From NCBI GenBank assembly GCA_016192425.1, contig JACPUE010000035.1, positions 1 through 64,000 on the forward strand: a DNA stretch of 64,000 nucleotides. Reading direction: 5' to 3'. The notes below the pieces were generated by a model. That model was not told where the DNA came from. It searched no databases and was given only the letters and a program-made list of their open reading frames with translations. Below, piece after piece: positions 124 to 63,383 of this stretch (within the stretch, counting starts at the first letter, position 1; each line of letters starts with the position of its first letter). Position numbers and translations under genes: made by a program. The DNA is from Burkholderiales bacterium. GTDB taxonomy: Bacteria; Pseudomonadota; Gammaproteobacteria; Burkholderiales; Burkholderiaceae_C.

Positions 124-2097
124 ATGATGACACGCCCTAGAATCCGGCGGGTGACCGAAACGATTGCAAACCCCTCCGCGCGCCGCCCCATCCGCGACCT
201 GCCCGACGAACTCATCAGCCAGATCGCCGCGGGCGAAGTGGTGGAGCGCCCCGCCTCGGTGGTGCGCGAACTGGTGGACAACGCGCTCGATTCCGGCGCC
301 AGCCAGATCACCGTGCGCCTGCTCGCCGGTGGCGTGCGCCTGATCGCCGTGGAAGACGACGGCTGCGGCATCCCCCAGGCCGAGCTGCCCGTGGCCCTGC
401 GCCGCCACGCCACCAGCAAGATCACCAACCTGCACGACCTGGAGACCGTGGCCACCATGGGCTTTCGGGGCGAGGCGCTGGCGGCCATTGCCTCGGTGTC
501 CGAAACCGCCCTGCTCTCGCGCCCTGCCGACCAGTCCCACGCCTACCTGCTGGACGCCCGCAGCGGCGAACTGCGCCCCGTGGCGCGCAGCAGCGGCACC
601 ACCGTGGAGGTGAAGGAGCTGTTCTTCAGCACCCCCGCACGGCGCAAGTTCCTGAAAACCGATGCCACCGAACTGGCCCACTGCGTGGAAGCGGTGCGCC
701 GCCATGCGCTGGCGCGGCCCGATGTGGGCTTTGCCATCTGGCACGAGGGCAAGCTGGTGGAGCAGTGGCGCGCCACCTGGCAGCCCGGTCAGGGGGATGT
801 GCAGGACGCCCTGGCCCGCCGCCTGGCCGACGTGCTGGGCGAGGACTTCGTGGCCCAGTCGCTGCCTGTGCAGCACACCGAAGGCGCCATCACCGTGACC
901 GGCCGCGCCGGCCTGCCCGACGCCGCCCGCTCACGCGCCGACCAGCAGTACTGCTACGTCAACGGCCGCTTCGTGCGCGACAAGGTGGTCACGCACGCCG
1001 CGCGCAGCGCCTACGAGGACGTGCTGCACGGCCAGCGCCAGCCGGTGTACGCGCTGTACATCCAGATCGACCCCGCGCGCGTGGACGTGAACGTGCACCC
1101 GACCAAGATTGAAGTGCGCTTCCGCGACAGCCGCGAGGTGCACCAGGCCGTGCGCCACGCCGTGGAAAACGCCCTGGCCGCACCACGCGCCCAGGCCCTG
1201 GCAGCGCCCGCAGCCCCCCTGGCGCCCGCCGCCAGCCCGGCACCAAATTCAGAGCCAAAAGTGCCTGCAGCGCCCGTCTGGAAAGCGCAAGGCGCTATGA
1301 AATTTGACGAACGCCCTGGCCACCGCGTCTCCGACCTGGGCGCCCTGTGGGGCGCACCCCGCCCCGCCGATGCCAGCCCGGCGCTGCCTACAGCACCCCT
1401 GCCCAGTGCAACCCAGGCCGCTACCGGCGCCACGGCGCAGCACCCCACAGCCGCCGCTGCACAGGCAAGCGCCGCTCCGCCCGCACAGCCCGCTGCCGAC
1501 GACGCCGCGCCCTGGCCCCTGGGCCGCGCGCTGGCGCAGTTGCACGGCGTGTACATCCTGGCCGAAAGCACCCAGGGCCTGGTGCTGGTGGACATGCACG
1601 CCGCGCACGAACGCATCGTCTACGAGCGCCTCAAGGCCCAGGCCGACACCGGCCAGCGCATCGCCAGCCAGCCGCTGCTGATCCCCGCCACCTTTGCCGC
1701 CATACCCGAAGAAGTGGCCACCGCCGAGACCCATGCCGACACCTTGCTGCACCTGGGCCTGGAGGTCTCGCCCTTCTCCCCGCGCACCCTGGCCGTACGC
1801 GCCGTGCCCACGCAGCTGGCCCACGGCAACCCCGTGGAGCTGGCCCGCAGCGTGCTGGCCGACCTGGCCGCGCACGACGCCAGCACCGTGGTGCAGCGCG
1901 CCAAGAATGAAATCCTGGCCACCATGGCCTGCCACGGCGCCGTGCGCGCCAACCGCAAGCTCACGCTGGACGAAATGAACGCCCTGCTGCGCCAGATGGA
2001 AGTGACCGAGCGCAGCGACCAGTGCAACCACGGCAGGCCGACCTGGCGGCAGCTCAGCATGAAGGAGCTGGACGCACTGTTCCTGCGCGGGCGATAA
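124..2097 (+). CDS. mutL: DNA mismatch repair protein MutL, endonuclease type
   Basis: Couples mismatch recognition by MutS to downstream strand removal. The N-terminal GHKL ATPase is clear: Glu49 in the RELVDN motif is the expected catalytic base, and GFRGEAL lies near residue 114. A Pro/Ala-rich linker (about 345-475) joins the C-terminal dimerisation domain. That domain carries DMHAAHERIVYE (about 490-501), ACHGA (about 602) and CNHGRP (about 634), which match the metal-binding endonuclease motifs of MutL proteins from species without MutH. The start at 124 has a GGGGGA ribosome site five bases upstream. 657 aa is normal for this group. A short interspersed repeat is translated within the linker. 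Confidence 0.96.
   Translation: MMTRPRIRRVTETIANPSARRPIRDLPDELISQIAAGEVVERPASVVRELVDNALDSGASQITVRLLAGGVRLIAVEDDGCGIPQAELPVALRRHATSKITNLHDLETVATMGFRGEALAAIASVSETALLSRPADQSHAYLLDARSGELRPVARSSGTTVEVKELFFSTPARRKFLKTDATELAHCVEAVRRHALARPDVGFAIWHEGKLVEQWRATWQPGQGDVQDALARRLADVLGEDFVAQSLPVQHTEGAITVTGRAGLPDAARSRADQQYCYVNGRFVRDKVVTHAARSAYEDVLHGQRQPVYALYIQIDPARVDVNVHPTKIEVRFRDSREVHQAVRHAVENALAAPRAQALAAPAAPLAPAASPAPNSEPKVPAAPVWKAQGAMKFDERPGHRVSDLGALWGAPRPADASPALPTAPLPSATQAATGATAQHPTAAAAQASAAPPAQPAADDAAPWPLGRALAQLHGVYILAESTQGLVLVDMHAAHERIVYERLKAQADTGQRIASQPLLIPATFAAIPEEVATAETHADTLLHLGLEVSPFSPRTLAVRAVPTQLAHGNPVELARSVLADLAAHDASTVVQRAKNEILATMACHGAVRANRKLTLDEMNALLRQMEVTERSDQCNHGRPTWRQLSMKELDALFLRGR
1243..1305 (+). 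repeat. Short AGCGC/AGCTAT-family repeat inside mutL linker
   Basis: This segment aligns with the intergenic copy at 53586-53637: 27 of 34 bases of the core are identical, including AGCGCCCGTC and AAAGCGC. It is read in frame as about 20 residues of the MutL linker (around residues 373-394), where insertion should be tolerated. Confidence 0.55.
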
Positions 2098-3609: not shown

Positions 3610-4854
3610 ATGCCTGTGTCCTCTGTGTCTGCCATGCCCAGCGCCGAATCCGTACCACCCGGCCTGGCCATTGTGGTGCTCGCGCTGCTGCTGTCCATCC
3701 AGCCCGTCACCACCGATTTGTACCTGCCCGCCCTGCCCGCGCTCACGCGCGACCTGGGCGCCAGCGTGGCCACCGGGCAGCTTACGCTCAGCGCGCTTTT
3801 GCTGGCGTTCGGCTGCTCGCAGCTGGTGTGGGGGCCGCTGTCTGACCGCTTTGGCCGCCGCCCGGTGCTGCTGGCGGGCCTGTGCATCTACACCCTGGCA
3901 TCGGTGGGCAGCGCGCTGGCGCCGTCCATGGCGCTGCTCATTGCGTGGCGCACCGCACAGGGCGCGGCCATGGGCGCGGTGGTGATGTGCGCACGCGCCA
4001 TCGTGCGCGACCTGTACACCCCGCTGGCCGGGGCGCGCGCCATGTCCAAGGCGCTCACCGGCCTGGGCCTGGTGGCCTGCCTGTGCGCGCCGCTGGGCGG
4101 GCTGCTGACGGTGTGGCTGGGCTGGCGCGCCGCGCTGCTGGCGCTCACGGCCTACGCGCTGCTGACGCTGGCCCTGGTGGCGCTGCGCATGCCCGAAACC
4201 CTGGCCCGGCCCAACCCGCAGGCGCTGCAGCCGGGCGTGCTGCTGCGCACCTGGGGCACGGTGCTGCGCCACCCCACGTTCTGGGCGTTTTCGCTGCTGA
4301 CCACGGCGGCCTACGGCGGGCTGTTCACCTTTCTGGCGGCATCGTCGTTCGTGTTCATCGAGGTGCTGGGCCTCTCGCGCACGCAGTACGGCGGGGTACT
4401 GCTGTCCACTGCGCTGGCCTACTTTGTGGGCACCTTCGTCTGCCGCACCCTGCTGGCACGCCACGGCCTGCGCCGCACCGTGGCACTGGCCGGGGGGCTG
4501 AGCCTGAGCGGCTGCACTTTGATGGCGCTGGTGGCCTGGGCGGGCTGGCACCAGCCTTGGGCGCTGCTGGCGCCGTTCTACCTGTTCATGCTGGGGCACG
4601 GCATCCACCAGCCCTGCGGGCAGACCGGCGCCGTGGGGCCGTTCCCGCAGGCGGCGGGCGTGGCCTCGGCGCTCAATGGTTTCATGATGATGCTGGCCGC
4701 CTTTTCCATTGGCGGCTGGGTGGGCACGCACCTGGACGGCACCGTGTGGCCGCTGGTGCGCGGCGTGTGGTTCTGGTCGGTGCTGCTGGCCGCCATCGCC
4801 TGGACTTTGGTACAGAAATTTGGAGAACCGCGTGAGCCGCGTGAACCTCGCTGA
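3610..4854 (+). CDS. MFS transporter, Bcr/CflA drug-resistance type
   Basis: A 12-helix major facilitator of 414 aa, probably a proton-driven exporter of drugs or small metabolites in the inner membrane. The first helix leads into [12 protein letters not shown], a hallmark of the Bcr/CflA subfamily, and the loop between helices 2 and 3 has the MFS motif [14 protein letters not shown]. Substrate cannot be told from sequence. The ATG at 3610 is used; a second in-frame ATG at 3643 is possible. The 3' end overlaps the miaA start, suggesting coupled translation. It is divergent from glpQ. Confidence 0.88.
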
Positions 4855-5839
4855 AGCCCCGCAAGCCATCGCCCTGGCAGGCCCCACGGCCTCGGGCAAG
4901 ACCGCTGGAGCCCTGGCCCTGGCCGCCGTGATCGGCAAGCGCATGCCGGTGGAGATCATCAGTGTGGACTCCGCCCTGGTGTACCGGGGCATGGACATTG
5001 GCACTGCCAAGCCCACGCCGCAGGAACTGGCCTGCGTGCCCCACCACCTGATCGATATCCGCGACCCTTTGCTGGCCTACAGCGCCGCCGAGTTCGTGCA
5101 GGACGCGACGCAGCTCATCGCCGACATCCGCGCGCGCGGCGCGCTGCCGCTGCTGGTGGGCGGCACCATGCTGTACTTCAAGACGCTGTTCGACGGCATT
5201 GACGACATGCCCGCCGCCGACCCGGCCGTGCGGGAACGGCTGGAAGCCCAGGCCGCCGAACAGGGCTGGCCCGCCCTGCACGCCGAGCTGGCGCGCGTGG
5301 ACCCGGTGACTGCCGCGCGCCTGGCGCCCGGCGACAGCCAGCGCATCCAGCGCGCGCTGGAGGTGTGGCAGGTGTCGGGCCGCCCGCTGTCAAGTTTTCA
5401 CACTATCAAAAATATAGCTGACAGCGCACGCCCCATAAGCGCTGGAGCCCTTTTTTCCTTGGAACCCAACAACCGTGCCTGGCTGCACGAGCGCATCGCC
5501 CAGCGCTTTGACGCCATGCTGGCCGCAGGCTTTGTGGACGAGGTGCGGGCCCTGCGCGCCCGCGGCGACCTGCACGCCGACCTGCCCTCCATGCGCTGCG
5601 TGGGCTACCGCCAGGCGTGGGAGGAACTGGACTTCCAGGCCACACGCCCTGCAGGCACGCCGCTGAACCTGGCCCTGCTGCGCGAGCGCGGCATTGCCGC
5701 CACGCGCCAGCTGGCCAAGCGCCAGATCACCTGGCTGCGCGGCATGCCCCAGCGCCAGCCCATCGCCTGCGACCACCCGCAGGCCGTGGCGCACCTCGTG
5801 CAGGCCGTGTTGGCACGGCTGGACGGCGGCGCGCCATAA
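4832..5839 (+). CDS. miaA: tRNA dimethylallyltransferase MiaA
   Basis: Transfers dimethylallyl to N6 of A37 in tRNAs reading UNN codons. The P-loop GPTASGKT falls at residues 17-24 and is followed by the typical [18 protein letters not shown] and the DIRDP motif. I chose GTG at 4832 because GGAGAA lies four bases upstream; GTG at 4841 is an alternative. Either start lies inside the end of the MFS gene, so the two genes overlap. About residues 190-206 come from a short interspersed repeat, placed where E. coli MiaA has a variable loop. 335 aa, slightly longer than E. coli MiaA. Confidence 0.94.
5403..5450 (-). repeat. Short AGCGC/AGCTAT-family repeat inside miaA
   Basis: Read on the minus strand it gives GGGCTCCAGCGCTT, a spacer, then GCGCTGTCAGCTAT and an AT-rich end, the same order as the intergenic copy at 53586-53637. 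The region is clearly richer in A and T than the flanking miaA sequence and is translated in frame without a stop. Confidence 0.7.
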
Positions 5840-32955: not shown

Positions 32956-32976
32956 GGGTGGTTGGATTTGATGGAT

Positions 32977-33032
32977 TATTTTGGCTGCTTGCGTCCGTAT
33001 ATCAAGCGCAAACAGCTATCAAAATAATAGCA
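32977..33032 (+). repeat. Short AGCGC/AGCTAT-family repeat between qor-like gene and pnp
   Basis: Intergenic copy: TTTTGGCTGCTTGCG, a short spacer, ATCAAGCGC, then AACAGCTATCAAAATAATAG. The order and spacing match the copy at 53586-53637. It starts about 20 bases upstream of the quinone oxidoreductase start codon and ends just before the pnp stop codon region. Confidence 0.7.
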
Positions 33033-33044
33033 ACACCTCAGCAA

Positions 33045-36295: not shown

Positions 36296-36850
36296 ATGCA
36301 AGCCTTGAACCCAGTGCACCATCCCCCTGCCCCGGCTACCTATAGGGTCGAGAAGACACGTCAACACGGATTTACAGCCATCGAATTGATGGTGGTAGTA
36401 GCCATTGTGGCCATTTTGGCCGCTTTGGCGGCACCAAGCTTTACGCCTTTGATTGAACGCTGGCGCGTGCGGCAAACGGCAGAAAGCCTGACGTCCAGCC
36501 TGTACTTGGCACGCTCCGAGGCCATCAAGCGTGGCGGCGGTGTTGCACTTGATGCCACCGGCGGATGGGATCAAGGCTGGAAAGTGACACACACCCAAAA
36601 CCTCGTCACGACCGACCTGCAGGTCGTTGCAGCCCCAGCCAAAACGAACATCGCCCAAAACAACGGCAAAACCATGCTGTTCATTGATCGCTGGGGAATG
36701 ATCTCAGAAACCAATGGCGGAGCGCCTGCTTCCATGAATTTCCCGATATACCCCGCTGGAAAGACGGATACCGACACCAGCGCCATCAGGCTTTGCGTGA
36801 CCAGCGGAGGACGGCTTACGCAAATGAAGCAAGGCGCAAGCTGCCCTTGA
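36296..36850 (+). CDS. fimT: FimT/GspH-like minor pseudopilin, copy 1
   Basis: Type IV pilus minor pilin, 184 aa. A leader of about 25 residues ends at the prepilin peptidase site G-FTAIELMVVVAIVAIL, whose fifth mature residue is the typical glutamate. The following WRVRQTAESLTSSLYLARSEAIKRGG matches the GspH/FimT profile; some family members bind DNA during uptake. It is a tandem homologue of the next gene, suggesting local duplication. First gene of the pilus cluster. Confidence 0.85.
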   Translation: MQALNPVHHPPAPATYRVEKTRQHGFTAIELMVVVAIVAILAALAAPSFTPLIERWRVRQTAESLTSSLYLARSEAIKRGGGVALDATGGWDQGWKVTHTQNLVTTDLQVVAAPAKTNIAQNNGKTMLFIDRWGMISETNGGAPASMNFPIYPAGKTDTDTSAIRLCVTSGGRLTQMKQGASCP

Positions 36851-36869: not shown

Positions 36870-37448
36870 ATGCCGTCTCAACCAAGCAACGCCATCATTG
36901 CACCCTCCAGGCGGGCAGCAGGTTTCACTGCCATTGAGTTACTAGTGACTGTTTCTATTGTGGCCATCCTGGCAGCCTTGGCCGCACCTGGCTTCACGCC
37001 ACTGATCGAAAGCTGGAGGGTGCGCCAAGCCACTGAACAGCTCAAGTCCAGCCTGTATCTGGCCCGCTCTGAAGCCATCAGGCGTGGCGGGCAAGTAGCA
37101 ATTCAAAAACTGCCCAACAACACCAACGGCTGCACAAGCGCTACTGGAAGCAGCGATTGGGATTGCGGGTGGTTCATCTGCCATAACACCAACAACGACA
37201 GTAACTGCGACGCTGGCGAACCCGTGTTGCAGCGGGTAGAAACGCCAGCACGTGTGCAGGTGACCCGTACGGGCGGCGGTGCCAGCATCAAACTTAACCG
37301 ATGGGGATTGGTTGACGGCAAGTGGCTGGGCTTCAGCTTGGTGCCGCTCAACAAAACCACCACCCACCCCGGTGCACGCGGCGTCTGCATGAGCTCCGGC
37401 GGCCGTTTACGCACCATCCCCCCAGAATCCATCCCCTGTACTGGCTAA
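36870..37448 (+). CDS. fimT: FimT/GspH-like minor pseudopilin, copy 2
   Basis: 192 aa, close in sequence to the preceding gene: both contain AAPxFTPLIExWRVRQ, then a conserved SSLYLARSEAI(K/R)RGG stretch. The prepilin cleavage site is G-FTAIELLVTVSIVAIL. The C-terminal halves differ, including extra cysteines here (about four), which suggests different roles at the pilus tip. Twenty bases downstream of copy 1. Confidence 0.85.
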   Translation: MPSQPSNAIIAPSRRAAGFTAIELLVTVSIVAILAALAAPGFTPLIESWRVRQATEQLKSSLYLARSEAIRRGGQVAIQKLPNNTNGCTSATGSSDWDCGWFICHNTNNDSNCDAGEPVLQRVETPARVQVTRTGGGASIKLNRWGLVDGKWLGFSLVPLNKTTTHPGARGVCMSSGGRLRTIPPESIPCTG

Positions 37449-43943: not shown

Positions 43944-43975
43944 TCCTTGTACCATCCGCTACCATCTAGGGCGCA

Positions 43976-45109
43976 ATGACCACACCTGCGCCCCCCATGA
44001 CCCGAGCGCTTGGGCTTGCCACCCAGGCGCTTTTTCTTTCCAACCCCAACCCACGCGTGGGTTGTGTCATCACCGCGTCCAATGGGCAGGTGCTGGGCGA
44101 AGGCTTCACCCAGCAGGCTGGCGGCCCCCATGCCGAGGTGATGGCGTTGCGCGATGCCGCTGCGCGGAACCACGACGTGCGCGGTGCCACGGCCTGGGTC
44201 ACGCTGGAGCCCTGTGCCCACCAGGGCCGCACGGGGCCATGCTGCGATGCGCTGATTGCCGCAGGCATTGGCAAGGTGGAGGCCAGCCTGGAGGACCCCA
44301 ACCCGCTGGTGGCAGGCCAGGGCTTTGCCCGCCTGCGCGCTGCCGGGGTGGAGGTGGCGGTAGGCCAGGGAGCAGCGCAATCGCGTGAACTGAACCTGGG
44401 TTTTTTCAGCCGCATGGTGCGCGGCACGCCCTGGGTGCGGCTCAAGGTGGCTGCATCGCTGGACGGTACCACGGCGCTGCACAACGGCGCCAGTCAGTGG
44501 ATCACTTCAGAGGCGGCACGGGCCGATGGCCATGCTTGGCGCGCCCGCGCTTGTGCCGTGCTCACGGGCGTGGGCACGGTGCTGGCGGACCAGCCCCGGC
44601 TGGATGTGCGTGCTGTGCCCACGCCCCGCCAACCGCACGCGGTGGTGCTGGACAGCCGCTTGCAAATGCCGTCAGATGCTCCTGTTTTTATAGCTTGCCG
44701 CGCTTGCTGGATCTATGCTGCAGGCCAAAATGGCACTGAAACAGATCGCGCTGCCTTTGCCATCCGCCGCCAGGCCCTGGAAGCGCGGGGCGCCACTGTG
44801 ACGCTGCTGCCTGGTGCCGATGGGCGGGTGGACTTGAAAGCCGTGTTGCACGACCTGGCCCGCCGTGGCGTGAACGAACTGCATGTGGAAGCAGGGCACA
44901 CGCTCAACGGCGCCTTGCTTGATGCAGGGCTGGTGGACGAGTTGCTGCTGTACCTGGCCCCTACCCTGCTCGGCCCTGGGCGCGGCATGGCAGACCGCGC
45001 ACCGCTGACCGACTTGGCCCAGGGTGTCCCCCTGGAGTTTGGGCCCGTGCAGCATGTAGGGCCAGACCTGCGCGTGCTGGCCCGCGTGCGCGGACGCGAC
45101 CAGTTCTGA
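43976..45109 (+). CDS. ribD: Riboflavin biosynthesis bifunctional deaminase/reductase RibD
   Basis: Carries out the second and third steps of riboflavin synthesis. The N-terminal deaminase (about 1-145) has the zinc site GGPHAEVMAL and EPCAHQGRTGPCCDAL; the C-terminal reductase follows (about 150-377) with VRLKVAASLDG and GAHTLNGA-like EAGHTLNGALL. 377 aa, normal. A short interspersed repeat is translated around residues 235-252 of the reductase domain. Followed by ribE after 26 bases. No FMN riboswitch was seen. Confidence 0.95.
   Translation: MTTPAPPMTRALGLATQALFLSNPNPRVGCVITASNGQVLGEGFTQQAGGPHAEVMALRDAAARNHDVRGATAWVTLEPCAHQGRTGPCCDALIAAGIGKVEASLEDPNPLVAGQGFARLRAAGVEVAVGQGAAQSRELNLGFFSRMVRGTPWVRLKVAASLDGTTALHNGASQWITSEAARADGHAWRARACAVLTGVGTVLADQPRLDVRAVPTPRQPHAVVLDSRLQMPSDAPVFIACRACWIYAAGQNGTETDRAAFAIRRQALEARGATVTLLPGADGRVDLKAVLHDLARRGVNELHVEAGHTLNGALLDAGLVDELLLYLAPTLLGPGRGMADRAPLTDLAQGVPLEFGPVQHVGPDLRVLARVRGRDQF
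44679..44734 (-). repeat. Short AGCGC/AGCTAT-family repeat inside ribD
   Basis: On the minus strand it reads TTTTGGCCTGCAG, a spacer, then CAAGCGCGGCAAGCTATAAA, close to the second copy in earP. It is in frame in RibD, in a stretch that varies between homologues. The AT-rich TTTTTATAGC part stands out from the surrounding GC-rich gene. Confidence 0.6.
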
Positions 45110-51693: not shown

Positions 51694-52830
51694 ATGCGGG
51701 CCATGCGTTCGCAAACCCCTACCGCCGCCCTGCAATGGGACATCTTCTGCCGCGTGATCGACAACTTTGGCGACATCGGCGTGTGCTGGCGCCTGTCTGC
51801 CGACCTGGCGGCGCGCGGCCAGCGGGTGCGCCTGTGGGTGGACGACGCCTCGGCCCTGGCCTGGCTGGCGCCGCAGGGCCATCCCGGCGTGCAGGTGCGC
51901 GCCTGGGGCAGCCTGCCCGCCGCGCACGAGCCCCCCACACAGGTGCTGGTGGAAGCCTTCGGCTGCGAGATTGCTCCTGAATTCATAGCTAACAGCGCCC
52001 GTATTTCAAGCGCCACAGGTGAAAAATACCTTTGGATCAACCTCGAATACCTCTCGGCCGAAGCCTATGTGGAGCGCTGCCACCGCCTGCCTTCGCCCGT
52101 GCGCGAGGGCGCGGCGCTGGGCGAGGTCAAATGGTTTTTTTACCCCGGCTTCACCCCAGCCACCGGCGGCTTGCTGCGCGAGACCGGGCTGATGGAGCGC
52201 CAGGCACGCTTTGACGCCGCTGCCTGGCGCGCAGCCCAGGGGCCCGGCACGCCCGACGATGCACCCGACGCCTGCTGGATCTCGCTGTTCTGCTACGAGC
52301 CCCCCGCCCTGCCCGCGCTGCTGCAGCAGTGCATGCAGCGCCCCACACGGCTGCTCGTCACGCCGGGCCGGGCTGCGGCAGCCACGCGGGCTGCCCTGGA
52401 AAATTTGGATAAAAACAGCCTGCAAGGCCTTCCAGACAAGCGCGGGCAGCTATCAATTTCATATCGAACCCCTTGCCCTCAGCCTGCCTTTGACGACATG
52501 CTCTGGGCCTGCGACCTGAACCTGGTGCGCGGCGAGGATTCGCTGGTGCGCGCACTGTGGGCCGGCCGGCCGCTGGTCTGGCAGATCTACCCGCAGCACG
52601 ACAACGCGCACCACGACAAGTTGCACGCCTTTCTGGACTGGCTGCAGGCGCCCGAGTCGCTGCGCCGCTTCCACGCCACCTGGAACGGCCTGGGCAACGC
52701 CCCCCTGGTGCTGCCAGACACAACCCAACTCGCACAATGGGCGGCCTGTGTGCAGGCCGCGCGTGCGCAGCTGCTGGCCCAGGACGATCTGGCGACACAA
52801 ATTCTGGGGTTCGTGCGCGAAAAACGGTAA
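51694..52830 (+). CDS. earP: EF-P arginine rhamnosyltransferase EarP
   Basis: Transfers rhamnose from dTDP-L-rhamnose to Arg32 of elongation factor P, enabling it to rescue ribosomes at polyproline. [24 protein letters not shown] opens the first GT-B domain and carries the conserved Asp residue; [20 protein letters not shown] and the [12 protein letters not shown] region bind the donor. 378 aa from ATG 51694; ATG 51703 is equally possible. Two short interspersed repeats are read in frame, near residues 94-111 and 237-257. efp lies downstream on the same strand. Confidence 0.94.
51974..52026 (-). repeat. Short AGCGC/AGCTAT-family repeat inside earP, copy 1
   Basis: On the minus strand: GGCGCTTGAAATACG, GGCGCTGTTAGCTATGAATT. 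The order of half-sites and spacing match the family. The plus strand is translated without a stop within EarP, replacing a loop before YLWINLE. Confidence 0.7.
52402..52464 (+). repeat. Short AGCGC/AGCTAT-family repeat inside earP, copy 2
   Basis: Plus-strand orientation: AGCCTGCAAGGCC, a spacer, then ACAAGCGCGGGCAGCTATCAA and an AT-rich end. It encodes part of a linker after the Ala-rich helix of EarP. Its lower GC content than the flanks is obvious by eye. Confidence 0.7.
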
Positions 52831-52971: not shown

Positions 52972-53526
52972 ATGAAAATCGCTCAAGAAATCCGCGCCGG
53001 CAACGTCATCATGCACGGCAAGGATCCCATGGTCGTGCTCAAGACCGAATACGCACGCGGCGGCCGCAACGCCGCCACCGTGCGCATGAAGCTCAAGAGC
53101 CTGATCGCCAACTTCGGCACCGAAGTGGTGTTCAAGGCCGACGACAAGATGGACCAGATCATTCTGGACAAGAAGGATTGCACCTACTCCTACTTCGCCG
53201 ACCCGCTGTATGTCTGGATGGACGCCGACTACAACCAGTACGAAGTCGAAGCCGAAAACATGGGCGACGCCCTGAACTACCTCGAAGACGGCATGGCCGC
53301 TGAAGTGGTGTTCTACGACGGCAAGGCCATCTCGGTCGAACTGCCCACCAGCGTCGAACGTGAAATCACCTGGACCGAACCCGCCGTCAAGGGCGACACG
53401 TCCGGCAAGGTGCTCAAGCCCGCCAAGATCGCCACCGGTTTCGAAGTGCCTGTGCCCCTGTTCGTGGACCAGGGCGACAAGATCGAAATCGACACCCGCA
53501 CCGGCGAATACCGCAAGCGCGTCTAA
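52972..53526 (+). CDS. efp: Elongation factor P, Arg32 type
   Basis: Relieves ribosome stalling at consecutive prolines. 184 aa, three beta-barrel domains (about 1-63, 66-126, 129-184). The loop tip YARGGRN has arginine at residue 32, the site modified by EarP, instead of the lysine used by EpmA/YmfI-type systems. The C-terminal [16 protein letters not shown] is the family signature. I chose the ATG at 52972. A strong terminator follows. Confidence 0.97.
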
Positions 53527-53543: not shown

Positions 53544-53577
53544 AAAAAGGCTTCCCTTGGGAAGCCTTTTTGTTTTT
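53544..53577 (+). terminator. Rho-independent terminator after efp
   Basis: AAAAAGGCTTCCC pairs with GGGAAGCCTTTTT (53544-53556 and 53559-53571) and is followed by GTTTTT. Ends the earP-efp unit 18 bases past the stop. Confidence 0.88.
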
Positions 53578-53585
53578 AAGCAATT

Positions 53586-53637
53586 TCAGGCTCTAGCGCC
53601 CGTCCAGAAAGCGCTACTAGCTATCAAATAAATAGCA
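53586..53637 (+). repeat. Short AGCGC/AGCTAT-family repeat between efp and rimO
   Basis: Intergenic reference copy: GGCTCTAGCGCCCGTCC, AGAAAGCGCTACTAGCTAT, then CAAATAAATAGC. It fills the gap between the efp terminator and the end of the convergent rimO gene. Confidence 0.75.
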
Positions 53638-55029
53638 TCAGATCGGCTGCGCCACCAGGTCGTGGCCCTGCACGCCGACAATGCGCGCCTTGGTGAATTC
53701 ACCCACCTTGAGCTGCTTGCTGATCTTCTCGGGCGCAAGCAGCTGCACGGTGCCGTCGATCTCTGGCGCATCGGCATAGGTGCGGCCCACACCGCCCTTG
53801 CGGCCCATGGCGGGCGCATGGTCCACCAGCACCTGCATGGTGGAGCCCACGCGGCGCTGCAGGCGCGCAATGGACACCTCTTCCGCCACCGCCATGAAGC
53901 GCGCACGGCGCGCTTCGCGCTCCTCCAGCGGCAGCATGCCGGGCAGTTGGTTGGCCTCGGCGCCGGTCACGTCGCTGTAGGCAAAGCAGCCGGCGCGGTC
54001 GATCTGTGCCTCGCGCAGAAAGTCCAGCAGGTGCAGGAACTCCTCTTCGGTCTCGCCGGGGAAACCGGCGATGAAGGTGCTGCGCACCACCAGCTCGGGG
54101 CACATCTCACGCCAGCGCTGGATGCGCTCCAGGTTCTTCTCGCCGCTGGCCGGGCGCTTCATGCGCTTGAGCACGTCGGGGTGGCTGTGCTGGAAGGGCA
54201 CGTCCAGGTAGGGCAGCACCAGGCCCTGCGCCATCAGCGGAATGACATCATCGACGCTGGGGTAGGGGTACACATAGTGCAGCCGCACCCAGGCGCCGTA
54301 GGGCGCGGCCATGGCGCCCAGCGTCTGCACCAGTTCGAGCATGCGCGTCTTGACCGGCTTGCCGTCCCAGAATCCGGTGCGGTACTTCACGTCCACGCCA
54401 TAGGCCGAGGTGTCCTGGCTGATGATGAGCAGCTCCTTCACGCCGCCCTCGAACAGCGCGCGCGCCTCGTTGAGCACGTCGCCAATGGGGCGCGAAACCA
54501 GGTCGCCGCGCATCGAGGGGATGATGCAGAAAGTGCAGCGGTGGTTGCAGCCCTCGCTGATCTTGAGGTAGGCGTAGTGGCGCGGCGTGAGCTTGATGCC
54601 CGCCTCGCCAAAGGCGCCGGGCACCAGGTCGATGAAGGGATCGTGCGGCTTGGGCAGGTTGCGGTGCACGGCGTCCATCACGTCCTGCGTGGCCTGCGGG
54701 CCGGTCACGGCCAGCACGCGGGGGTGCACCTGCTGAACGTAGTTGCCGCCATCGTCGCCCGCGCGCGCGCCCAGGCAGCCGGTGACGATGACCTTGCCGT
54801 TCTCGGCCAGCGCCTCACCGATGGTGTCCAGGCTCTCCTTGACGGCGTCGTCGATGAAGCCGCAGGTGTTGACGATGACCAGATCCGCACCCTCGAAGGA
54901 CTTGGCGGTCTGGTAGCCCTCGGCGCTGAGCTGCGTGAGGATGAGTTCGGAGTCGGTCAGGTTCTTCGGGCAGCCGAGGCTGACGAAACCGATTTTTGGG
55001 GTCTTGGTGGGGGAGAGTGCTTCGCTCAT
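53638..55029 (-). CDS. rimO: Ribosomal protein S12 methylthiotransferase RimO
   Basis: Radical-SAM enzyme that methylthiolates the conserved aspartate of S12. 463 aa: an N-terminal MTTase domain with three cluster cysteines (SLGCPKN, NTCGF, VTGCLG), a radical-SAM core with [11 protein letters not shown], and a C-terminal TRAM domain. The ATG at 55029 begins MSEALSPTK. Convergent with efp. Confidence 0.96.
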
Positions 55030-61879: not shown

Positions 61880-62668
61880 ATGCTCAAAGGCAAGACGGCC
61901 CTCGTCACCGGTTCCACCAGCGGCATCGGCCTGGGTATCGCCAAGGGACTGGCGCGCCAGGGCGCCCATGTGGTGCTCAACGGCTTTGGCGACGCCCAAG
62001 GCCCCTGCGCCGAAGTACGCGCCGCCGCGGTCCAGGCCGGGCACGAGGTGCGCGTGGAATACCACGGCGCAGACATGAGCCGCCCTGCCGACATCGAGGA
62101 CATGATGGCCTTTGCCGCCCGCGAACTGGGCCGCGTGGACATCCTGGTCAACAACGCGGGCATCCAGCATGTGGCCAGCACCGAGGACTTCCCGGTCGAG
62201 CGCTGGGACAGCATCCTGGCCATCAACCTCTCCAGCGCCTTCCACACCACGCGCCTGGCCCTGCCCGCCATGAAGGCCGCCAACTGGGGGCGCATCATCA
62301 ACGTGGCCTCGGTGCACGGGCTCGTGGCATCGGCCCAGAAGGCCGCCTATGTGGCTGCCAAGCATGGTGTGGTGGGCCTGACCAAGGTGGTGGCGCTGGA
62401 GACCGCCACCACGGGCGTGACCTGCAACGCCATCTGCCCCGGCTGGGTGCTCACGCCGCTGGTGCAAAAGCAGGTGGATGCCAAGGCTGCCGCCCAGGGC
62501 CTCTCGATCGAAGCGGCCACCCGGCAACTGCTGGGCGAAAAGGAGCCGTCGATGCAGTTCACCACCCCCGAAGAGCTGGCCGGGCTGGCCGTGTTCTTCT
62601 GCTCCAGCGCCGCCAACAACGTGCGCGGCGTGGCCTGGAACATGGACGGCGGCTGGACAGCGCAGTAA
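61880..62668 (+). CDS. hbdH: 3-hydroxybutyrate dehydrogenase
   Basis: NAD-dependent short-chain dehydrogenase, 262 aa, oxidising D-3-hydroxybutyrate to acetoacetate when PHB is used. VTGSTSGIGLGIAKGLA is the cofactor loop, LVNNAGIQHVAS the NNAG motif, and Ser144, Tyr157 and Lys161 form the catalytic set. The QH and the PGWVLTPLVQKQ segment are typical of this enzyme. Divergent from the hydrolase gene. Confidence 0.93.
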   Translation: MLKGKTALVTGSTSGIGLGIAKGLARQGAHVVLNGFGDAQGPCAEVRAAAVQAGHEVRVEYHGADMSRPADIEDMMAFAARELGRVDILVNNAGIQHVASTEDFPVERWDSILAINLSSAFHTTRLALPAMKAANWGRIINVASVHGLVASAQKAAYVAAKHGVVGLTKVVALETATTGVTCNAICPGWVLTPLVQKQVDAKAAAQGLSIEAATRQLLGEKEPSMQFTTPEELAGLAVFFCSSAANNVRGVAWNMDGGWTAQ

Positions 62669-62669
62669 T

Positions 62670-63383
62670 TCAGCGCATTTGCACAGAGCCGGAAACAGTG
62701 ACTTCCACCGTGCTCTTGCCCGCCTCCACCGGCAATGCGCTGTCGGCCATGGACGACATCTTGGCCTCCATGGCCATCATGCGCTGGCGCGGCAGCGGCA
62801 TTTGCCCCTGGCTGCTGACCGACACCTCGCGCAGCGCGTAGCCCGCAAAGCCAAAGGCCTTGGTGAGCGTGGCTGCACGCGCCTTGAAAGCCTCGATCGC
62901 CTGCGACTGGGCTTCGCGCTCGGCGCGCTCGCTCTCGCTGCGGCTCAGCCCAAAGCCCACGTTGGCGATGGGCATGCCCTGGATGCGCGCTGCCGTAGCG
63001 GTGATGCGGGCAAAGTCCCGCCCCTGCAACACCAGCTCTGCGCGGCCCTGCCAGCCGGTGATCTCGCCATTGCGCCCATTGCGCGGGTACAGGCTGAACT
63101 GGCCGGTGCGCACCTCCATCTGCGGCGCCTCGGCCTGGCTGCGCGCCACCTTCAGTGCGGCATCGACCACCTGGCGCAACTGCGCCTGCACGTTGGCAGC
63201 GTCCTTGCCGTCTGCACTGGCGCCCAGGGTGAGGATCAGTTCGTCCTGCTGCACCTCCACAGCCCCACGGGCCGAGAGCTGCGCCACATTGCGCGGCTCC
63301 GGCGCCACCTGGTTTTGAGAAAAAACCGGTGCAGCGCTTATAAATAAAGCGCTGGCAGCTATTATTTTTATAGCAAATCGCAT
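62670..63383 (-). CDS. SIMPL-domain (DUF541) periplasmic protein
   Basis: A 237-aa secreted protein; the SIMPL family has no settled biochemical role, with links to oxidative stress and signalling. Residues 1-22 (MRFAIKIIAASALFISAAPV and onward) form a signal peptide that is encoded almost entirely by a short interspersed repeat. The domain follows with LSARGAVEVQQDELILTLG and a conserved internal GFGLSRSE. ATG at 63383. It converges on 3-hydroxybutyrate dehydrogenase with one base between stops. Confidence 0.87.
   Translation of the reverse strand: MRFAIKIIAASALFISAAPVFSQNQVAPEPRNVAQLSARGAVEVQQDELILTLGASADGKDAANVQAQLRQVVDAALKVARSQAEAPQMEVRTGQFSLYPRNGRNGEITGWQGRAELVLQGRDFARITATAARIQGMPIANVGFGLSRSESERAEREAQSQAIEAFKARAATLTKAFGFAGYALREVSVSSQGQMPLPRQRMMAMEAKMSSMADSALPVEAGKSTVEVTVSGSVQMR
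63326..63376 (+). repeat. Short AGCGC/AGCTAT-family repeat encoding a signal peptide
   Basis: GGTGCAGCGCTTATAAATA, AAGCGCTGGCAGCTATTA, then TTTTTATAGC on the plus strand. The minus strand is translated as residues about 3-19 of the SIMPL protein. The two AAGCGCT/AGCGCTT half-sites form a perfect palindrome here. Confidence 0.75.

Follow-up and report, generated by a model that had tools for sequence, protein, structure and literature searches.

REP sequences translated within genes have been described in several species, in one case at an approximately shared position in two relatives, and the encoded peptides were suggested to form linkers or loops (PMC3733652). None of Acidovorax, Delftia, Polaromonas, Variovorax and Comamonas is mentioned in the main text of that work. 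In the accounts available, RAYTs are portrayed as fast-evolving and flanked by inverted REPs (PMC2817692), some RAYT classes are assigned repeats without the GT(A/G)G tetranucleotide (PMC6006769) and 14 of 1,067 occurrences are reported to overlap genes (PMC3116915). REPINs, for their part, have been treated as long-lived populations (PMC8049555). RPEs are given a length of 105–146 bp (PMC2229807) and are described as ending in CGTC (PMC3733652).

We analyzed a 64,000-nucleotide stretch of DNA (the window) from a Burkholderiales bacterium, in which a preliminary description had recognized two copies of a genome-interspersed palindromic repeat translated inside EarP, the EF-P arginine rhamnosyltransferase. 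Our search profile was built from 94 copies of AAGCGCN4AGCTAT located elsewhere in the source genome, with all window copies excluded from the model. It recovered eight repeat copies in the window, five of them in frame within genes (mutL, miaA, ribD and, twice, earP). The features are listed below in the order of the window.

1246–1305, plus strand: repeat copy in frame in mutL (open reading frame 124–2097, plus strand), 29.6 bits
5403–5466, minus strand: repeat copy in frame in miaA (4805–5839, plus strand), 29.5 bits
32971–33033, plus strand: repeat copy without an in-frame assignment, 43.0 bits
44677–44742, minus strand: repeat copy in frame in ribD (43973–45109, plus strand; RibD match in the PDB), 28.7 bits
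51703–52830, plus strand: earP, an open frame of 375 amino acids (PDB EarP 6j7m, E 2e-66)
51971–52028, minus strand: EarP copy 1, encoding residues 90–109 (20 residues), 15.8 bits, E 5e-4
52401–52464, plus strand: EarP copy 2, encoding residues 233–254 (22 residues), 44.6 bits, E 5e-13
53572–53637, plus strand: repeat copy between efp (52972–53526, plus strand) and rimO (53638–55029, minus strand), 54.2 bits
62667–62669, no strand assigned: empty site after a TAA stop, with no element in the source genome and occupied in a genome of the same genus (G202)
63312–63376, plus strand: repeat copy without an in-frame assignment, 46.3 bits; G202 has a copy at the aligned place

As had been proposed, the two EarP copies lie in opposite orientations and each is read through in frame, and the intergenic copies previously placed at 32977–33032 and 53586–53637 are delimited by the profile at 32971–33033 and 53572–53637. 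The three additional in-frame copies of the window, in MutL, MiaA and RibD, had gone unmentioned. In our proposed reading, to which we assign a probability of about 0.7, both EarP segments are ancient in-frame copies from a family of short Comamonadaceae repeats that is REP-like, associated with RAYT and present in up to hundreds of copies per genome.

The repeat spans approximately 66 bp and comprises two hairpins (AGCGCTT..AAGCGCT and GCTAT..ATAGC) within the consensus tTtt.aa..AAAt..GcCTCtAGCGCttgt..a.cAAGCGC.AGCAGCTATcAAatt.ATAGCAa, both ends of which lack a GT(A/G)G or CGTC tetranucleotide. Its dispersal through the source genome, also part of the preliminary description, is borne out by 268 matches to AAGCGCN4AGCTAT at one mismatch or fewer vs 15 for the reversed pattern. 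The window holds 14 matches at up to two mismatches, whereas 100 shuffles averaged 4.5 and never exceeded 10. Paired positions of the hairpins did not covary above shuffled alignments in stem 1 (379 of 2000 shuffles reached the observed value) or stem 2 (2000 of 2000) and did so marginally in an extended stem 1 (95 of 2000). Copies anchored on the exact motif carry no information on one arm. Rfam searches returned no match at gathering score over the repeat copies, the sole matches at that level being three tRNAs; six sub-gathering matches fell near repeat copies, one of them over EarP copy 2 (ssnA, E 0.31). An apparent strand polarity in one genome (G004, all 50 listed places on the plus strand) was rejected as a probable effect of listing because the totals were 132 and 134 and the orientations were mixed in G003 and in the source contigs. 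Separately, two element ends stand head to head in L018 (1488–1568) and form a near-perfect palindrome around GCGCCAGCAGCTAT. The window also contains a 183-nt direct repeat (36368–36550 and 36921–37103) with 73 percent identity between its copies.

We counted exact-motif copies, forward plus reverse, against a control in 41 named genomes. Copies vs control reached 352/0 in Diaphorobacter nitroreducens, 315/0 in Acidovorax radicis and 310/0 in Ottowia beijingensis. Delftia acidovorans, Paracidovorax citrulli and Hydrogenophaga palleronii had zero copies, and nine Variovorax and four Limnohabitans had 0–1. A further genome, G015, had 540 exact copies, the highest number overall. Within the source genus, copy numbers were 159–271 in four genomes (G200, G202, G204 and G205), 131 in G207 and 10 in G208. 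Outside the Comamonadaceae, 41 genomes showed no excess of the motif (8 matches vs 29 in the reversed control). One intergenic site is polymorphic within the genus: at 62668, the element lies directly after the stop codon in G202 and about 40 bases past the stop at the aligned site in G205, and the source genome has none. No target-site duplication was apparent at this one clean empty site.

The RAYT survey covered 15 repeat-rich genomes, so that the co-occurrence of repeat and RAYT is one-sided, and it identified the gene in 14 of them: 13 by matches to Y1_Tnp (PF01797) above cut-off and the source genome by tblastn. The remaining genome (G095, 92 copies) had no Y1_Tnp match. All 13 carry one RAYT of a common type, about 230–240 residues long from the conserved start. 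The five RAYTs tested all matched NCBIfam NF047646 (REP_Tyr_transpos; cut-off 80 bits), two with scores above the cut-off (85.0 and 87.3) and three below it (75.7, 77.0 and 49.4), and the sole PDB match was TnpA-REP 4er8 (E 0.0016). RAYT is also more diverged than most of its neighborhood, at 67–72 percent nucleotide identity vs 69–86 percent.

The PF01797 result had suggested that the source genome lacks a RAYT, and we discarded it as a false negative: the gene scored 17.1 bits, below the Pfam cut-off of 23, and tblastn found it at the syntenic place. This source RAYT (contig 2, 21448–22149; L342:7449–8150, minus strand) is an open frame of 233 residues, and four same-genus genomes likewise carry an open-frame RAYT at that place. 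It is 54–61 percent identical to seven others compared and scores 61.9 bits against REP_Tyr_transpos, below the cut-off of 80. The HuH motif and the tyrosine that we take to be catalytic from the alignment to 4er8 are present in 12 of 14 aligned RAYTs. In the source RAYT, NH(F/L)H has become SRYH, replacing the first HuH histidine with arginine, and the tyrosine of VYIDLNP is a glycine; the RAYT of Comamonas composti (G179, L341) is changed at the same two positions (H to R and Y to F). With that histidine and the tyrosine predicted to be catalytic both missing, mobility of the repeat through this RAYT has probably stopped in the source genome, to judge from the sequence. A frame that stays open without the predicted catalytic residues suggests a retained role other than transposition. 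G015 has, besides its one RAYT, twenty Y1 transposase family matches, several of which lie in IS200-sized frames (153 aa), and Acidovorax radicis carries a second Y1-type family (L336:2543–3430) distinct from the RAYT described here.

Repeats were detected within 200 bp on 9 of 26 RAYT sides, three of those nine scoring below 10 bits. At the E-value scale of the control, they occurred on 8 of 26 sides vs 10 of 520 control segments (p 3e-7), and at 13 bits or more on 6 of 26 vs 8 of 520. Two of 13 genes had repeats on both sides, in six no repeat could be detected inside the 200-bp limit, and the profile search found none flanking the source RAYT. The unflanked genes could be accommodated if the repeat were a MITE or another element moved by a transposase unrelated to RAYT, as could the absence of a GT(A/G)G tag and the mention, in a review, of a MITE in Polaromonas, for which the JS666 genome paper is cited. 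The enrichment of repeats beside RAYT genes speaks against such an origin, however, as does the presence of RAYT in 13 of 15 repeat-rich genomes and in the source genome, and we consider it quite unlikely.

EarP copy 1 is weak when considered by itself, as the palindromic back-hit of another copy scores 14.8 bits vs 15.8. The same site in orthologues, on the same strand and in the same frame, gives 51.1 bits (E 1e-14) in L105 and 36.9 bits (E 4e-10) in L102; at site 2, L105 scores 38.9 bits. Both copies thus stand as translated repeats, the first of them on the strength of its orthologues. Of 111 Comamonadaceae EarP loci, 16 reached at least 15 bits on the minus strand at site 1 and 20 did so on the plus strand at site 2, and the frame at both sites is identical among the Comamonadaceae loci where they are translated. 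The preliminary description had also considered that the same residues might be found in families without the repeat, as ordinary protein sequence. None of 28 EarP loci from other families of the order had element-like DNA at either site (E≤1), in keeping with the lack of a motif excess in the 41 outside genomes. Ordinary EarP sequence could still resemble the repeat by chance, given the weakness of copy 1 and the LSISY-like and PEFIA-like residues present in relatives whose genomes contain few other copies or none. We regard this as extremely improbable, and already refuted for copy 2 by its profile score, in view of the profile scores (44.6 bits for the window copy, as much as 51 in relatives), the 28 negative loci outside the family and the codon anomaly at both earP sites described below.

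In a midpoint-rooted tree of earP (117 rows, with the two element segments removed), occupancy switches 19 times at site 1 and 22 times at site 2. Both sites are empty in Limnohabitans, most Hydrogenophaga and the Delftia/Comamonas clade. Because the deepest split in the family tree has occupied rows on either side, the earP copies are not recent, and we read their distribution as an early entry followed by recurrent loss; alternatively, the element may have been gained more than once at one position. A recent transfer of earP between genera was rejected, since codon identity outside the two segments, counted where the residues are identical, is 0.58. The EarP of a contig titled as an Akkermansia muciniphila MAG (L197) groups with Limnohabitans, and the contig is probably mis-binned.

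The element had been expected to enter genes and survive as extra loops in important enzymes; in-frame copies in important genes were indeed found, but the loops were not. Counted between conserved anchors, EarP site 1 has a mode of 22 residues in the Comamonadaceae and 27 residues in L105, vs a mode of 18 in other families. Site 2 has a mode of 62 in the Comamonadaceae and about 61–62 residues in other families, with 48–55 in many relatives without the element. Same-genus species that lack the element have similar lengths at both sites. An AlphaFold2 model of EarP (mean pLDDT 90.1) superimposes well on solved EarPs (6j7k, Z 39.7, rmsd 2.3 over 341 residues). In this model, copy 1 (residues 90–109) maps on core helix 92–105 and copy 2 (233–254) forms a helix end, a low-confidence loop (241–250, mean 60) and a core strand (250–254). 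As the net length change is small and the copies model as core helix and strand, the predicted structure indicates that the element peptide took over existing parts of the EarP fold rather than adding loops to it.

A codon model seeded with EarP, EF-P, UvrC and RimO called 13 of 107 copies in frame, namely 10 of 97 exact-motif copies and the weaker window copies in MutL, MiaA and EarP site 1. The hosts, assigned by PDB and Pfam matches, are MutL, MiaA, RibD, EarP (two copies), MetG, AceE, AceF, Tex, a YgiQ-type radical SAM protein, a GntR/aminotransferase regulator and a nucleotide-sugar dehydratase, together with a weakly supported penicillin-binding protein; gene names such as AceF and YgiQ are labels that we presume from those family matches. 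The element is translated in at least four reading frames across these genes. The MutL copy falls between the N- and C-terminal domains (Pfam DNA_mis_repair ends at residue 351 and MutL_C starts at 470). In MiaA (Pfam IPPT match), the net length change relative to relatives without the element is 0, and AceE is 10 residues longer than PDB 1l8a. The Tex site has 32 residues in five genomes with element-like DNA, a net gain of 8 over the 24 found in most of the remaining genomes, where lengths of 20, 25 and 31 were seen as well. The net change across the EarP, MiaA, Tex and AceE copies therefore ranges from 0 to +10 residues. In Ottowia beijingensis (G169), Tex matched in separate pieces, at several positions and on more than one contig, rather than as one gene.

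The longer Tex site in genomes with the element and the intergenic gain or loss within the genus would both be expected of an ordinary selfish insertion followed by purely protein-level selection, in which case the rare codons shared between species would reflect the slow decay of an old insertion. We consider this account plausible, though somewhat short of an even chance, because host length is often unchanged and because of the codon usage in earP. In a codon alignment of 108 Comamonadaceae EarPs, the two segments account for 8 of the 10 oddest synonymous-codon columns, including CTA TCA ATT TCA (site 2) and GCT .. ATA (site 1). We measured codon sharing between distant species (<75 percent identical) in genomes chosen regardless of their EarP state. 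In 27 genomes with at least five copies, A/T-ending codons were shared at 0.84 (3412/4063) in both sites vs 0.25 (4970/19832) in the rest of earP; in 43 genomes with fewer than five copies, the values were 0.36 at the sites vs 0.24 elsewhere.

These frequencies raise the possibility that earP actively maintains its repeat sequence as a signal in the DNA itself, through putative binding of RAYT or another protein or through overwriting by new copies, while the protein adapts. Such retention would add to our reading of the segments as ancient in-frame repeat copies rather than replace it, and we advance it tentatively. Consistent with it, 24 of 108 EarPs carry CTATCAATTTCA without a mismatch at site 2, and three same-genus genomes with 1–3 copies genome-wide (G201, G203 and G206) lack the codon signature at both sites at similar lengths. 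The source RAYT frame, kept open though predicted to be inactive, also fits. On the other hand, Variovorax paradoxus keeps the site-2 core with 0 exact motif copies genome-wide, and the hairpins show no clear covariation. Furthermore, site 1 is among the top twelve of 358 six-codon windows and site 2 is not, and unrelated windows that start at alignment columns 44–52 rank as high.

Site occupancy was associated with genome copy number across 80 genomes scored for at least five copies (29/38 vs 4/42 for site 1, Fisher 7e-10; 28/44 vs 5/36 for site 2, Fisher 9e-6), but an independent-pair test of this association was not significant on well-supported branches (median p 0.125). Individual genomes depart from it: Comamonas composti has 125 motif copies and none in EarP, and Xylophilus keeps site 2 with 3 exact motif copies. 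Xylophilus also has 68 matches to the right-hand core at up to two mismatches vs 0 for the reversed sequence. A dual-coded earP can be imagined, more speculatively still, in which repeat DNA is held as a DNA signal at synonymous positions in repeat-rich Comamonadaceae, via RAYT binding or the overwriting of old copies. The repeat would then dictate the core helix and strand while its population persists, with the gene reverting after the repeats die out.

Returning to the EarP segments as ancient copies of a RAYT-associated repeat, we envision a RAYT that would have copied the element as single-stranded hairpin DNA. Copies that broke genes would mostly have been lost, leaving the intergenic ones and a minority whose peptide was tolerated. 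The earP copies would have entered early in the Comamonadaceae, taken the place of residues in a helix and a strand that already existed, at little net change in length, and been kept as protein and, in repeat-rich lineages, possibly also at the DNA level. Their near-constant length would fit an insertion that was trimmed afterwards as well as conversion by a copy.

The translation of REPs has precedent in the literature (PMC3733652); the repeat family, its depth in earP and the codon-level retention of repeat DNA are new. Among the papers listed in our literature searches, none dealt with this repeat in Comamonadaceae, and an earlier description under another name is possible (the Polaromonas JS666 MITE). 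The findings add the Comamonadaceae to the bacterial families with a REP-like/RAYT system, one in which translated copies became core structure and not loops. The existence of repeat-rich and repeat-free species, some of them in one genus, makes the host role of REP populations testable and allows one to ask whether selection holds the sequence of repeat DNA even within genes.

Among known systems, the Comamonadaceae repeat resembles REP/REPIN and RAYT as these are described (PMC3733652, PMC2817692, PMC3116915) in its hundreds of short palindromic copies and single RAYT of this type per genome, and likewise in the divergence of the RAYT relative to most neighbors and the translation of some copies inside genes. 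It departs from the classical REP in its length of about 66 bp, its two hairpins and the lack of a GT(A/G)G or CGTC tag. It departs from REP/RAYT systems also in that the earP copies encode a core helix and strand (as modeled) common to much of a family and that the source RAYT is without the predicted catalytic residues. Like the RPEs, as reported in PMC2229807, it is read in frame in unrelated conserved genes; RPEs are, however, 105–146 bp long, CGTC-tagged and the source of a long extra peptide, whereas the Comamonadaceae repeat is untagged, adds a net 0–10 residues and has a RAYT. The parallel with Rickettsia palindromic elements drawn in the preliminary description was therefore fair in outline, yet REP/RAYT is the better family comparison. 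The enterobacterial RU/ERIC and Neisseria NEMIS MITEs are also small non-autonomous repeats that are sometimes fused in frame (PMC2229807), but they are longer, have terminal inverted repeats and mostly generate target duplications, of which the Comamonadaceae repeat had none at the one site examined. Because the GT(A/G)G end tag is absent, we name the Comamonadaceae repeat REP-like and RAYT-associated rather than a classical REP.
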